The notes beneath the pieces were generated by a model that saw only the letters and a program-made list of their open reading frames with translations, was not told where the DNA came from and made no database searches. Source: Acidobacteriota bacterium (GTDB lineage Bacteria; Acidobacteriota; Vicinamibacteria; Marinacidobacterales; SMYC01). Taken from it: 64,000 nucleotides of DNA. The DNA is taken from the NCBI GenBank assembly GCA_004356105.1, contig SMYC01000152.1, forward strand, positions 40,214 through 104,213, written 5' to 3'. Below, one piece after another: positions 7,392 to 47,212 of the stretch; position 1 is the stretch's first letter, and each line of letters opens with the position of its first letter. The translations under genes were made by a program, and so were the position numbers.

Positions 7392-7782
7392 GAGCCTATT
7401 TCTTTCAAGACCGTCACCAGGTTCAGGAGGCCTACACTTACGCCGCCATCGACGAACAGTACTTGCCCCGTAATATAGCTCGCTTCGTCGCTGGCCAGGA
7501 AGAGCATCGCTTTTGCGATCTCATCGGGCTCGGCAATCCTGCCGAGCGGAATGCGCTGGAGGAGCTTGGACCGTACGTTGTCAGGGATTCTAGCCACCAT
7601 CCTTGTATTGGTGAACCCAGGCGCGACCGCGTTGACGCGAACACGTCTCGAGCGTAAGCCGAGAGGCTGCGAATGTCATTCAAGGCAACTTTCGCGCCCT
7701 CTTCCGCAAATAACAGCGCGGCGGCGCGCCCGATGCCGGAAGCCGCACCCGTATTAAGGGCCGTTTTGCCCGCAAGACGCAT
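7388..7782 (-). pseudogene. short-chain dehydrogenase with large internal deletion and frame change
   Basis: The first part reads MRLAGKTALNTGAASGIGRAA, the cofactor-binding start of an FabG-like SDR. After about 40 codons the frame continues as unrelated sequence, while another frame resumes with [16 protein letters not shown] and ends with the family C-terminus ([30 protein letters not shown]). About 100-130 codons of a roughly 245-residue SDR are missing, including the NNAG motif and the catalytic Ser-Tyr-Lys. The product cannot be an active dehydrogenase. A simple sequencing slip cannot explain the loss of several hundred bases. Confidence 0.85.
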
Positions 7783-7861
7783 GTCCGAAATCGGCCTCCA
7801 AATTTTGGGAAGCCCTATCCTATCAGAAACGTAGGACTCGGCGGCTATGAAAGGTGCGTAA

Positions 7862-7905
7862 AAGATACACCAGACGCCGATTAGGTGTCTCTTATGCGAT
7901 ACACC
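7862..7905. promoter_or_regulatory. three half-sites upstream of lpxC (candidate activator site)
   Basis: The octamer GATACACC occurs at 7864-7871 and 7898-7905. An inverted copy (GGTGTCTC) lies between them at 7884-7891. The first two form a 10-nt-armed inverted repeat. They lie about 80-130 bases upstream of the sigma54-type promoter of lpxC, the distance at which enhancer sites for sigma54 activators normally sit. The binding role is inference. Confidence 0.4.
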
Positions 7906-7982
7906 TCCTGACCGCGAAGATGCGATAAGCTATTAAACCTTGTCGTAGCTACTATTTGCACGTGCACGGCAAGCTCGCCGCC

Positions 7983-7998
7983 TGGCATGATAGTTGCT
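7983..7998 (+). promoter_or_regulatory. sigma54-type promoter of lpxC
   Basis: TGGCAT-N5-TTGCT places GG and GC exactly ten bases apart, the defining spacing of the -24/-12 promoter, with one mismatch to TGGCAC. Transcription would start near 8010, about 17 bases before the lpxC ATG at 8027. This also argues against the TTG at 7994 as the lpxC start, because it lies inside the promoter. Confidence 0.55.
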
Positions 7999-8026
7999 TA
8001 TAGGGACCCCGGAACGTCAGATACGA

Positions 8027-8980
8027 ATGCAAAAGCAAACAACCCTCAAAGAAATCACCAGCTGCGTCGGGATCGGCCTTCATTCTGGCCGAAGAGTCGA
8101 GCTCACGCTCAAGCCAGCACCCGCCGATAGCGGCATCGTCTTTCGACGCGTGGATTTGCCTGACATGCCTGACATGCCTGACATGGATGACATGGCTGAC
8201 ATGCCCGATAGGGACATCCCTGCCACGATGGAGCATCTTTCCCATATCAATCATGCCACGTGCCTCGCGCGGGATAACGTGCGGATCGAGACCGTCGAGC
8301 ACCTGCTAGCCGCGTTTCGCGCGCTTGGCGTCGACAACGTGATCGTAGAGCTCGACGGCGCCGAAGTACCCATCATGGACGGAAGCGCGGCGGCGTTCAT
8401 TTATCTCATTCATGAGGCGGGCATTCGAAAACTCACGATGCCTCGTTCCGTCATCAAGCTCAAGAGTCCGATCTCCGTGACGGATGGAGGACGTTTTGTC
8501 GCAGCCTATCCTTCGGATAAGTTCAAGGTCAGCTACACGATCAACTTCGCGCACCCTCTTCTCCGGCACCAGGAATATTCGACGGAGATCAACGAAACCA
8601 GCTTCATCGAAGAAATCGCTCCCGCACGGACTTTTGGATTTCTGAAGGACGTCGAGCTCATGCGGCAACGGGGCCTCGCCCTGGGTGGCTCGCTCGATAA
8701 CGCCGTGGTTCTCGGTGAGACCGGTGTTCTGAACAATCCCTTGCGTTTCCCTGACGAGTTCGTACGTCACAAGATTCTCGATTTGCTCGGCGACCTCGTA
8801 TTGCTCGGCAAACCGCTCCAGGCCCATGTCGTCGCGATGCGCGCCGGCCACGAGCTTCACACGAGACTCGTCAAGGCCATCCTAGAGACACCGGATAGCT
8901 GGGAGCTCGTCACGGAGCCCACGCTAGCGCCGTTTGCCCCCAAAGTCGCCCAGCCGCTACTCGCCCGCACGTCCCGCTAA
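8027..8980 (+). CDS. lpxC: UDP-3-O-acyl-N-acetylglucosamine deacetylase
   Basis: LpxC catalyses the first committed, zinc-dependent step of lipid A synthesis in the cytosol. The protein of about 317 residues has the zinc ligands His92 (VEHLLA), His248 and Asp252 (RHKILDLLGD), and the catalytic-region motif AGHELHTRL. The ATG at 8027 is chosen over the TTG at 7994 because homologues begin with a sequence like QTTLKEITSCVGIGLHSG. An in-frame run of PDM-like triplets interrupts the N-terminal domain between FRRVDL and DIPA. The gene stands alone behind a sigma54-type promoter. A LapB-like protein, a regulator of LpxC stability in E. coli, is encoded 4 kb away. Confidence 0.93.
   Translation: MQKQTTLKEITSCVGIGLHSGRRVELTLKPAPADSGIVFRRVDLPDMPDMPDMDDMADMPDRDIPATMEHLSHINHATCLARDNVRIETVEHLLAAFRALGVDNVIVELDGAEVPIMDGSAAAFIYLIHEAGIRKLTMPRSVIKLKSPISVTDGGRFVAAYPSDKFKVSYTINFAHPLLRHQEYSTEINETSFIEEIAPARTFGFLKDVELMRQRGLALGGSLDNAVVLGETGVLNNPLRFPDEFVRHKILDLLGDLVLLGKPLQAHVVAMRAGHELHTRLVKAILETPDSWELVTEPTLAPFAPKVAQPLLARTSR
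8159..8203 (+). repeat. five tandem 9-bp units inside lpxC
   Basis: The unit CCTGACATG occurs three times in a row, followed by GATGACATG and GCTGACATG. It encodes PDM-PDM-PDM-DDM-ADM. Being a multiple of three, unit gain or loss keeps the frame. It sits in a surface-loop position between FRRVDL and DIPATM. Confidence 0.85.
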
Positions 8981-12865: not shown

Positions 12866-14227
12866 CTATGGAGTCGACCAGGTCGGTGAGGGTGCTATCA
12901 CGGGCTCGGGCGTATCGACAGTTGGAAGATGCAGGCTCACCGTGCCCCAGCGCCCACAACGCGCGCAGCGCTCCGTCCATTCCGACGTGCGCCACGCGCA
13001 GCTTTCGCAGGCATAGTCCATCATCAGCCCTTCGACCTCGGCGACGAGCAACTTGGTCTTTTTGAGCGCGGCGGAGAGCTCGTTCTTGCTCTCCAGGATT
13101 CGAGCCATATAGAGATGGAACGTAGGCAGACCGCTCACGCGATCCTCGATCATCTGGAACTCCCGGAGCGCCTCGTCGAGCATGAATAGCCGATAGTGAA
13201 GCTTTCCCAAACAGTAGCGGAGCGGCACCTCATTCTCGCTGAGAACGAGGGCCTGCTTCCACACACCTATCGCTTCTTCCGGCTCCTCGGCGCGCAAATA
13301 GAAATTTTGGAGCGAAGAGAGGAGCTCCGTCGAGCCCGTGAGCTCGTAGCCGCGCTGCCACGTGCCTATCGCTTCTTCCGTCTCGTCGTTCGCGGCGAGT
13401 GCCTCTCCCAAACGGATATAGGCGGGGACAAAGCTCTCATCCTCGGCCAGTATCAAACGAAAGCCGGCGATCGCCTCCTGAGATCGTCCGGCCGAAAGCT
13501 GCGCCACGCCAAGGCCGAGGCGAAGGCCTTTCGCCATGTCCCGCTCGAGCGCACGCTCTTCGTCCGAGACCATGTCCACGAGACGGCTCTGCAGCGCACT
13601 CGCCTCTTCCCACTTCTGATGTCCGACCAGGAGATCCCGGAGTTGTCGGTGCGCCGAGACCGTCGGCAACGGCCAGCCTTCGATAATCTGCTCCAGGACG
13701 ATCTTGGCACGCTCCTCGGCACCGGCGGCGAGATAGACATCCACGAGCGAGTAGAGCGCCACGAGATTATTCGGCGCCACGCGCGTAGAGCGCTCGAGCG
13801 TATCGGCAGCCTCCCGATAGCGCTTGAGCGCTCGAAGACTATCGCCTTTCTTGACAAGCGCGTGCTCGTGCTCGGGTTCGCGCTCGAGCACGGAATCGAA
13901 GCGCTGGAGCGCTTTTTCATGATGACCGTTGACCAAGGCGTCGAGCCCAGCCATGTAGAGCTCCTCGACGGCTTGATGGGCCTCGTCCACGCGACGCCGG
14001 CGGCGATCGCGAGCAAGACGCCGCACCCCTCCCGCGAGGTCGAAAAACAAAATGACCCCGGCACCGATCCCGAAAGCCGCGAGCATGACCATCCAAAGCT
14101 CGAGCACGACCGGCCGGAAGAACGCGAACTGAACCGTCACATACGCCTCATTCAGGCGAATCGTCGAAACCGCGAACCAGACGAACGCAAAAACAACGAG
14201 CATCGTGAGAAGAGTCCGAGCCCGCAT
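12866..14227 (-). CDS. LapA-LapB-like fusion: membrane anchor, TPR array and zinc ribbon
   Basis: The 453-residue protein starts with two transmembrane segments (about 5-22 and 40-63) like the small protein LapA. A TPR array follows (about 85-390, for example GHHEKALQRFDSVLEREPEHEHAL). A rubredoxin-type zinc ribbon ends it, CESCAWRTSEWTERCARCG. In E. coli LapB (YciM) has one N-terminal helix, TPRs and this ribbon, and is encoded next to lapA; it controls FtsH degradation of LpxC. A two-helix anchor joined to the TPRs suggests a single-chain version. LpxC is encoded in the same window. The regulatory role here is inferred. Confidence 0.75.
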   Translation of the reverse strand: MRARTLLTMLVVFAFVWFAVSTIRLNEAYVTVQFAFFRPVVLELWMVMLAAFGIGAGVILFFDLAGGVRRLARDRRRRRVDEAHQAVEELYMAGLDALVNGHHEKALQRFDSVLEREPEHEHALVKKGDSLRALKRYREAADTLERSTRVAPNNLVALYSLVDVYLAAGAEERAKIVLEQIIEGWPLPTVSAHRQLRDLLVGHQKWEEASALQSRLVDMVSDEERALERDMAKGLRLGLGVAQLSAGRSQEAIAGFRLILAEDESFVPAYIRLGEALAANDETEEAIGTWQRGYELTGSTELLSSLQNFYLRAEEPEEAIGVWKQALVLSENEVPLRYCLGKLHYRLFMLDEALREFQMIEDRVSGLPTFHLYMARILESKNELSAALKKTKLLVAEVEGLMMDYACESCAWRTSEWTERCARCGRWGTVSLHLPTVDTPEPVIAPSPTWSTP

Positions 14228-14305: not shown

Positions 14306-15280
14306 TCAGTCGACCTCATACCTCTTGCGACGCTGCCAAAGCGACTTGCGACTGATCCCAAGAATCTCCGCGGCACGGGTCGTATTCCCGCCCACATCCC
14401 GCAGAACCCGCTCGATATAGCTCTTCTCGACCGCGGCAAGGGTAGGTCGCTTGTGAAGCGTGACACCCCACGTGACGGACGGGCTCTCGAGAACGTAGGC
14501 AGGGATATCGGCTCTCTCGAAAGTCTCACTTTTCGACAATATCGCGCCGTGCTCGACGACGCCCTTGAGCTCCCGTACGTTTCCGGGCCAAGCGTAAGTC
14601 GCGAATAGCTCGAGCGCATCTGGCGAAAATCGTCGCGGCGCGCGGCCTCGGCGCTCGACCTCTTTTTCGAGGAAGTGCTCCGCGAGAGGAACGATGTCGG
14701 CAGGTCGCTCCCGAAGAGGTGGAAGCCGAATCCAGAAAACACCGAGACGATGGAACAGGTCGCGGCGAAAAAGCTCGCGCGTAACAGCCTCCTCGAGATC
14801 GGCGCTCGCGGAAGCGATGAGGCGAGCCTCGAGCTCGACGGGCTCTGTCCCTCCGAGCCGTTCGAATCGACGCTCCTCGACCGCCCGCAAGAGCTTGGCC
14901 TGGTGGAGCGGAGAAAGCTCGCCAATCTGGTCCAGAAACAACGTGCCCTTGCCGGCAAGCTCGAACTTTCCGGCTTTTCGCTGAGCCGCGCCGGTGAACG
15001 CGCCACGCTCATAGCCAAAGAGCTCGCTCTCGAGCAAGCTCCCGGGAATGCTCGGAAGATCGACCGTGACCATGGGAAGCGCGGACCGCTCTCCCCACAA
15101 GTGCAGCGCATGCGCTGCGAGGTCTTTTCCGGTACCGCTCTCCCCGCTCAGAACCACATTGCTTGACGCTGTCGCGAGACGCTCGAGAAGCCGCACGATT
15201 TCCACCATCTGCGGATCGTGGGCGATAATCGTGGCCTCGAGACCAGCCTTAACAGGCTTCGCCCTCGGCGCCTTGGGCAT
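14306..15280 (-). CDS. sigma54-dependent activator without receiver domain, Walker B Gln
   Basis: The 324-residue protein consists of an AAA+ activator domain (Walker A GESGTGKD, the sigma54-contact loop ERGAFTGA, arginine-finger region FRRDLFHRLGVF) and a Fis-type helix-turn-helix (NTTRAAEILGISRKSLWQRR). It has no sensory domain, like PspF. The Walker B motif reads LFLDQIGEL: the usual catalytic Glu after Asp is Gln118 (codon CAG). In PspF, changing this Glu blocks ATP hydrolysis. The gene follows rsfS by four bases, so it is transcribed with obgE and rsfS. Confidence 0.85.
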   Translation of the reverse strand: MPKAPRAKPVKAGLEATIIAHDPQMVEIVRLLERLATASSNVVLSGESGTGKDLAAHALHLWGERSALPMVTVDLPSIPGSLLESELFGYERGAFTGAAQRKAGKFELAGKGTLFLDQIGELSPLHQAKLLRAVEERRFERLGGTEPVELEARLIASASADLEEAVTRELFRRDLFHRLGVFWIRLPPLRERPADIVPLAEHFLEKEVERRGRAPRRFSPDALELFATYAWPGNVRELKGVVEHGAILSKSETFERADIPAYVLESPSVTWGVTLHKRPTLAAVEKSYIERVLRDVGGNTTRAAEILGISRKSLWQRRKRYEVD

Positions 15281-45841: not shown

Positions 45842-47212
45842 CTACCCGTCCGACTCCTGCGCGATCTGGTACTGCTCGAGCTTCTTATAGAGATTACTCC
45901 GCGGCGTCCCAATCACTTGCGCCGTCTGAGAGATATTCCAGCCATTCTCTCGAAGCTTCTGCACCAGAAACGCCCGCTCGCTCGTCTCCTTGAACTCCTT
46001 CAACGTATTCGCAGTCGCCGCCTGAGACGACGGCGTGTCTTCCTGAGGAACACGAATATGCTCCGGCAGATCGACAACATCGATCGTGTCCGAGGGCGCC
46101 ATGATCAAGACGCGCTCGATCGTGTTCCGGAGCTCGCGGATGTTCCCTTCCCATTTGTGATGGACGAGGCGCTGCATCGCCTGCGGAGAGAAATGCTTTC
46201 GCCGCAAATTGTCCTCGGCGGCGAAGCTCGAGACGAAGTGCTCGATGAGAGACTCGATATCGTCCCGACGCTCGCGCAAAGGCGGTGTCGGGATGGGGAT
46301 GACGGATAGTCGAAAATAAAGGTCTTCGCGGAAGTTTCCCTCTGCGATTTCCTTCTTGAGATCTTTATTCGTCGCCGCAATGACCCGCACATCGACCTTG
46401 AGCGTGTTCTGCGAGCCGACGCGCTCGACTTCACCTTCTTGAAGAACGCGCAGCACTTTGGCCTGGGTGCGAGCGCTCATGTCGCCGATCTCGTCGAGAA
46501 AAATCGTCCCGCGATCGGCTTGCTCGAACTTTCCGATCTGTTTGTTCGTCGCCCCCGTGAACGATCCTTTCTCGTGCCCGAAGAGCTCGCTCTCGATGAG
46601 GTCTTCGGGGATGGCGGCGCAGTTGACTTGAATCCAGGGGGCGCGGTTACGGTTGCTGTTGGTGTGGATGGCGCGGGCGACGAGCTCTTTGCCCGTTCCC
46701 GACTCGCCCGTGATGAGCACGGTGGCGTTCGTGGGCGCGGAGCGGGCGATAGCTTCACGCACTTTGTCCATCGCCGCCGAAGTCCCGATCATCTGGTAGC
46801 GGCGCTCGAAACGGGGCCGGAGCCTAGAGACCTCCTCCGTGAGCTGTTTGCGCTCGAGCGCATTGCGGACGGCGAGCAAGATCCTTTCGGTCTCGAGCGG
46901 CTTTTCGATGAAATCGAAGGCGCCGAGCTTCGTGGCTTGGACGGCCGTTTGCACGTTACCGTGGCCGCTCACCACGACGACTTGAGGCGCGGTGGTGCGC
47001 TCGCGAAGCTCTCCAAGAACTTCGAAGCCGTCCATCCCCGGCATCTTGATATCGAGAAAAACCAGGTCGTAGGGCTCGTTCTCGATCTTGTCGAGCGCCT
47101 CCGCCCCAGACGATCCTTCGGAGACGTCATAACCCTCGTATTCGAGCGTCATGCGCAGCATCTTGCGGATGGGCTCTTCGTCGTCCACAACAAGTATGCG
47201 GGGCTTGACCAT
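45842..47212 (-). CDS. NtrC/NtrX-type sigma54 response regulator
   Basis: The 456-residue protein has a receiver domain (ILVVDDEEPIRKML, phospho-acceptor Asp in LVFLDIKMPGMDG near residue 53, Lys in FDFIEKPLE). The AAA+ domain has GESGTGKE, the sigma54 loop KGSFTGAT (Gly-Ser in place of Gly-Ala) and Walker B FLDEIGD. A Fis-type helix-turn-helix ends it (NISQTAQVIGTPRSNLYKKL). No sensor kinase lies next to it. It is most like NtrX. It is the second sigma54 activator of the window and has the normal catalytic Glu. Confidence 0.93.
   Translation of the reverse strand: MVKPRILVVDDEEPIRKMLRMTLEYEGYDVSEGSSGAEALDKIENEPYDLVFLDIKMPGMDGFEVLGELRERTTAPQVVVVSGHGNVQTAVQATKLGAFDFIEKPLETERILLAVRNALERKQLTEEVSRLRPRFERRYQMIGTSAAMDKVREAIARSAPTNATVLITGESGTGKELVARAIHTNSNRNRAPWIQVNCAAIPEDLIESELFGHEKGSFTGATNKQIGKFEQADRGTIFLDEIGDMSARTQAKVLRVLQEGEVERVGSQNTLKVDVRVIAATNKDLKKEIAEGNFREDLYFRLSVIPIPTPPLRERRDDIESLIEHFVSSFAAEDNLRRKHFSPQAMQRLVHHKWEGNIRELRNTIERVLIMAPSDTIDVVDLPEHIRVPQEDTPSSQAATANTLKEFKETSERAFLVQKLRENGWNISQTAQVIGTPRSNLYKKLEQYQIAQESDG

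Follow-up and report, generated by a model that had tools for sequence, protein, structure and literature searches.

How is transcription of lpxC started in this acidobacterium, and which regulator acts on it? LpxC, a drug target, commits the cell to making lipid A, and its textbook control is the proteolysis established in E. coli. The window, that is the whole 64-kb stretch of DNA analysed here, belongs to a genome of 6.77 Mb in 335 contigs, and an initial annotation had proposed that its lpxC is driven by a sigma-54 promoter with activator sites upstream. Both parts of this proposal were upheld, as the GG and GC of the promoter are conserved, operators lie upstream at fixed spacing and rpoN is encoded in the genome (PF04552, E 9e-65, G000:C35).

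A conserved sigma-54 promoter element precedes lpxC

The -24/-12 element TGGCATGATAGTTGCT (Table 1) carries its GG at 7984-7985 and its GC at 7996-7997 with exactly ten nucleotides in between, and thus has the GG-N10-GC spacing initially reported for it. Its position had been given as 17-30 bases before the lpxC start, but it actually starts 44 and ends 29 bases upstream of the ATG (8027-8029). When the window was searched for TGGCAYG-N4-TTGCW with up to one mismatch, TGGCATGATAGTTGCT was the sole match, with 0.68 expected by chance. As a single match in 64 kb is therefore unremarkable, conservation of the promoter was tested in 110 genomes of the class (Acidobacteriota, probably Vicinamibacteria) representing 19 families. 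A GG-N10-GC element scored at least 8/12 in 98 of the 110 lpxC upstream regions and at least 9/12 in 87, compared with 19, 9 and 5 scoring at least 8 in control segments of the same upstreams, 5 on the reverse strand and ∼9% of shuffled sequences. Enrichment was confined to N10, spacings of N6-N9 and N11-N14 giving 5-17 of 110, and the columns flanking the element held almost zero information. Alignment of relatives, which had been suggested as a check on the GG and GC dinucleotides, thus spoke for the promoter. In the other three genomes of the window's family, lpxC is preceded by TGGCACGATAGTTGCT (two genomes) or TGGCATACGATTTGCT (one genome). The sigma-54 motif before lpxC is real and conserved, a judgement based on class-wide conservation and not on the single-site match. 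It is very improbable that the motif arose by chance or is a conserved sequence of some other sort, with a sigma-70 promoter driving lpxC: one match is indeed expected in a window of such size, but this reading is opposed by the exact spacing throughout the class, by the paired operators at fixed distance described below and by the failure to find any sigma-70-like site upstream of lpxC on the plus strand.

Upstream of the element, most of the 98 class promoters carry two 18-bp palindromes, TGTGGY-N6-RCCACA, situated 35 bp apart and typically beginning ∼148 and ∼113 bp ahead of the -24 element; paired palindromes at fixed spacing are thus found in the region, ∼80-150 bp upstream, where sites for an activator were sought. 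In the window's family the operators have diverged from this class consensus, the GATACACC half-sites being the diverged version. The 18-bp core of the proximal operator (7886-7903) has its start 97 bp upstream of the -24 element; its counterparts are TGTCTC-N6-GACACA and TGTGTC-N6-GACACA in the family members L032 and L033, and TGTGGY-N6-RCCACA class-wide. The distal operator, whose centre lies ∼32 bp from the proximal site as compared with 35 bp in the class-wide pairs, is recognizable by a similar GTGC..A-AAAGATACA block retained in the other three family genomes. Three half-sites had been described initially: two exact copies of GATACACC are indeed present, at 7864-7871 and 7898-7905 (0.5 expected in the window), whereas the third, GGTGTCTC at 7884-7891, is inverted and pairs with the second copy in a palindrome. 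In one promoter-less genome, G163, the distal operator is intact and the aligned -24 GG reads GA.

Table 1. Positions of lpxC, its putative control sites and the candidate activator genes (window coordinates unless a contig is named).
Feature	Position	Strand	Basis
Distal putative activator operator (diverged), GGTGCGTAAAAGATACACC	7853..7871		Similar block in family
Promoter-proximal putative activator operator, palindrome GGTGTCTC-TTATGC-GATACACC	7884..7905		Inverted repeat
Sigma-54 -24/-12 promoter element, TGGCATGATAGTTGCT	7983..7998	+	11/12 consensus bases
lpxC, UDP-3-O-acyl-N-acetylglucosamine deacetylase, 317 aa	8027..8980	+	Pfam LpxC, E 1.8e-105; NCBIfam TIGR00325 over cut-off
PspF-like sigma-54 activator without sensor domain	14306..15280	-	Pfam Sigma54_activat, HTH_8
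Sigma-54 response regulator OG-A	45842..47212	-	Pfam Response_reg, Sigma54_activat, HTH_8
NtrX-like response regulator (OG-C)	Contig C78:82852-84189, outside the window		Receiver, AAA+ with GAFTGA, Fis-type HTH

With regard to the gene and its surroundings, LpxC contains a short insert of repeated sequence, PDMPDMPDMDDMADMPD (8155-8210), whose coding DNA is made up of tandem units resembling GACATGCCT. Divergent from lpxC, the minus strand carries an apparently frameshifted short-chain dehydrogenase fragment of 114 aa (7438-7782), probably a pseudogene.

Candidate activators of the lpxC promoter

The genome encodes ∼26 sigma-54 activators, and the two that the initial annotation had counted in the window both exist (Table 1). 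The link from these two to the lpxC promoter, which had been offered as an inference, was not sustained. OG-A is kept in 8 of 15 promoter-less genomes, all in family f9 (G151, G156-158, G163, G049, G167 and G170). The PspF-like activator, which stands beside a LapB-like gene and was our first favourite, does not occur in the lpxC-obgE block of many genomes with the promoter, among them members of f4, f9, f11, f12, f15 and other families, so that most promoter-bearing families are without it there. Two further groups were rejected, OG-B being missing from all f9 genomes, promoter-bearing members included, and OG-D being universal and present even in a family without lpxC. The gene directly downstream of the PspF-like activator gene (12866-14227, minus strand) encodes a protein of 453 aa in which a LapA-like N-terminus and TPR repeats are combined with a LapB-type zinc ribbon, both end domains scoring below the Pfam cut-offs; it may represent a fusion of LapA with LapB, encoded next to a sigma-54 activator.

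Among small genomes, the activator inventories of promoter-bearing ones were compared with those of genomes lacking the promoter or lpxC. Four activator groups were common to the promoter-bearing set, and OG-C was the only one of the four whose presence tracks the promoter: it was found in nearly all promoter-bearing genomes but in none of the 15 promoter-less ones sampled from families f9 and f6, a co-occurrence with a Fisher p of ∼6e-7 before any phylogenetic correction. On the LpxC tree, co-loss is represented by ∼5 independent pairs, of which 3.4 on average changed in the same direction and 0 in the opposite one (sign test p ∼0.25), so that the tree-corrected co-loss alone has too few pairs for significance. 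OG-C was kept without a detectable promoter in G025 and G099, and a promoter without OG-C was found in G024, G029, G062, G077, G091, G134, G166 and G172. The latter cases are perhaps due to assembly gaps, many of the genomes being fragmentary assemblies in which single absences are uncertain. Family f2, which belongs to the same order as the window and in which lpxC was not detectable in any of the ten sampled genomes (G004-G013), was also without OG-C in the nine genomes searched for it; lipid A may have been lost in this lineage.

The domains of OG-C, a receiver, a sigma-54 AAA+ domain and a Fis HTH, fit the NtrX family. NtrX was also its best NCBIfam model, at 473-509 bits, and as this is under the cut-off of 600 bits for that model we call the regulator NtrX-like. 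GAFTGA or GSFTGA occurs in those OG-C regulators of the class that could be read through, and an NtrY-like kinase is encoded beside OG-C in 16 of 18 loci. No standout operator was found upstream of the OG-C gene in 30 loci, so that binding gains no support from autoregulation. A covariation between the HTH variants ERSN and ERSH and operator base 5 involved too few families and is only suggestive.

Other phyla link the same type of regulator to lpxC physically. The gene order is lpxC-ntrY-ntrX in Delta IMCC39146 and lpxC-DUF4390-ntrY-ntrX in a Rokubacterium, the linked regulator being closest to OG-C, and in eight more loci of Desulfobacterota ntrY is found close to lpxC. Several of the ntrY-linked lpxC loci have the same promoter together with a TGTG-N10-CACA operator. 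We therefore consider it unlikely that lpxC is controlled by sigma-54 through OG-A, the PspF-like activator or OG-B instead. The HTH of OG-A is highly conserved and the group nearly universal, and in the window's family the PspF-like gene lies within the lpxC-obgE block, next to the LapB-like gene; but the distributions of all three do not follow the promoter, and of the candidate activators only the NtrX-like group has lpxC as a neighbour in other phyla.

A putative one-gene regulon and its proposed mechanism

A combined operator and promoter pattern was searched for in 170 whole genomes. It matched in 78 of them, almost always a single time, and just three of the places matched lay away from lpxC; 75 of the 78 genomes matched lpxC alone. 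A reversed-pattern control gave 2 matches, and these and the three non-lpxC places are at about chance level. The pattern is strict and misses even the diverged site of the window itself, for which reason the 78 genomes are a lower bound, and its reach does not extend to possible targets with weaker sites. With matches almost confined to lpxC, the system looks like a one-gene regulon in which lpxC is the near-sole target.

Taken together, we propose, with a probability of roughly 0.78, that RNA polymerase with sigma-54 transcribes lpxC and that the NtrX-like regulator and its NtrY-like kinase activate this transcription through the two operators. The NtrY-like membrane kinase, encoded alongside, would phosphorylate the NtrX-like regulator, which is predicted to bind the two palindromes ∼80-130 bp upstream of the promoter; the bound regulator would then touch the polymerase and open the promoter, transcription starting from the element at 7983-7998. 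As lpxC is seemingly the sole target by its site pattern, the pair would govern how fast lipid A synthesis is entered upon an envelope signal presumably sensed by NtrY. This organization suggests that this acidobacterium and most of its class control outer-membrane lipid synthesis at transcription, probably by way of an NtrYX-like two-component system.

Relation to known lpxC control and occurrence in other phyla

The nearest known case is DVU2934 of Desulfovibrio vulgaris Hildenborough, a sigma-54 response regulator that has been mapped to one target only, lpxC (DVU2917) (PMC3333781, PMC4641369). Like the regulator proposed here, DVU2934 is a two-component response regulator with GAFTGA and has lpxC as sole target, in our case by pattern search. 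Unlike the NtrY-like kinase, its operon partners, the kinase DVU2931 and an HD-GYP regulator, are not described as NtrY. Its validated motif precedes lpxC in just two other Desulfovibrio genomes, and the likeness of DVU2934 to OG-C is one of description.

In two alphaproteobacteria, NtrYX and ChvGI are listed as transcriptional regulators of lpxC in a 2025 review (PMC12444477), and the pairing of an NtrY kinase with an NtrX tied to the envelope and to the lpxC transcript level, known from Rhodobacter sphaeroides and Caulobacter, is shared with the system described here (PMC7240162, PMC12444477). Alphaproteobacterial NtrYX lowers lpxC, has more targets and has a predicted site GCA-N9-TGC, whereas the operator described here immediately precedes lpxC, is situated at a sigma-54 promoter and is near-unique in the genome. 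In R. sphaeroides the lowering is indirect, with an 8.8-fold rise of the lpxC transcript in an ntrYX deletion (PMC7240162).

This rise could be taken to mean that the NtrX-like regulator mainly represses lpxC and that the sigma-54 site is a secondary promoter, and a repressor would also suit four Terriglobia-type 'gp1' loci (L100, L105, L110 and L121) in which TGTGGC-N6-GCCACA stands 60-78 bp before lpxC and the sigma-54 element was not found, hinting at a sigma-70 or repressor version of the system. For the class studied here we hold such repression to be quite improbable, given the GAFTGA or GSFTGA of its regulators, the enhancer-like distance between the operators and the conserved -24/-12 element and the indirect nature of the Rhodobacter effect. 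Activation by the NtrX-like regulator differs from LapB/FtsH of E. coli as well, which acts on the LpxC protein after translation while the control proposed here is transcriptional.

Francke et al. proposed in 2011 that sigma-54 is generally associated with genes for LPS and the envelope (PMC3162934); their main text is without lpx genes and Acidobacteria, and they gave no such promoter or regulator. A sigma-54-type promoter has been predicted upstream of lpxC in Leptospira (PMC12655853); this concerns another phylum and is a prediction only, and the passage concerned assigns no activator to lpxC. Our literature search found no report of such lpxC control for Acidobacteriota. Control of this kind is hence already known; what appears to be new is the conserved architecture shared across the class, its assignment to an NtrYX-type system and its breadth.

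Within 150 bp of lpxC, a sigma-54 element with a score of 9 or more was present in 35 of 49 loci from Acidobacteriota, Desulfobacterota/Delta, Nitrospirota, Myxococcota and Rokubacteria, in 4 of 140 control segments and in none of the 25 beta- and gammaproteobacteria sampled, the sample being the returns of one lpxC search and not balanced. The element is accompanied by a matching operator in L090, L116 and L126, and by a TGTGT-type palindrome in L072 and L092. Tentatively, and at slightly less than even odds, regulation of lpxC transcription through sigma-54 and an NtrYX-type system may be old and widespread in diderms outside the beta- and gammaproteobacteria, LapB/FtsH proteolysis being the better-studied exception. 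A dedicated, near-single-gene sigma-54 switch kept across a class, together with motifs of this kind ahead of lpxC in several phyla, would mean that lipid A output is set at transcription in much of diderm diversity. With a candidate sensor in the NtrY-like kinase and an exact operator, the signal for LPS synthesis outside the Proteobacteria becomes testable. Among other acidobacterial lpxC upstream regions, L070, L135 and L136 combine a sigma-54 element with TGTTGC/GCAACA palindromes, possibly a changed form of the operator.
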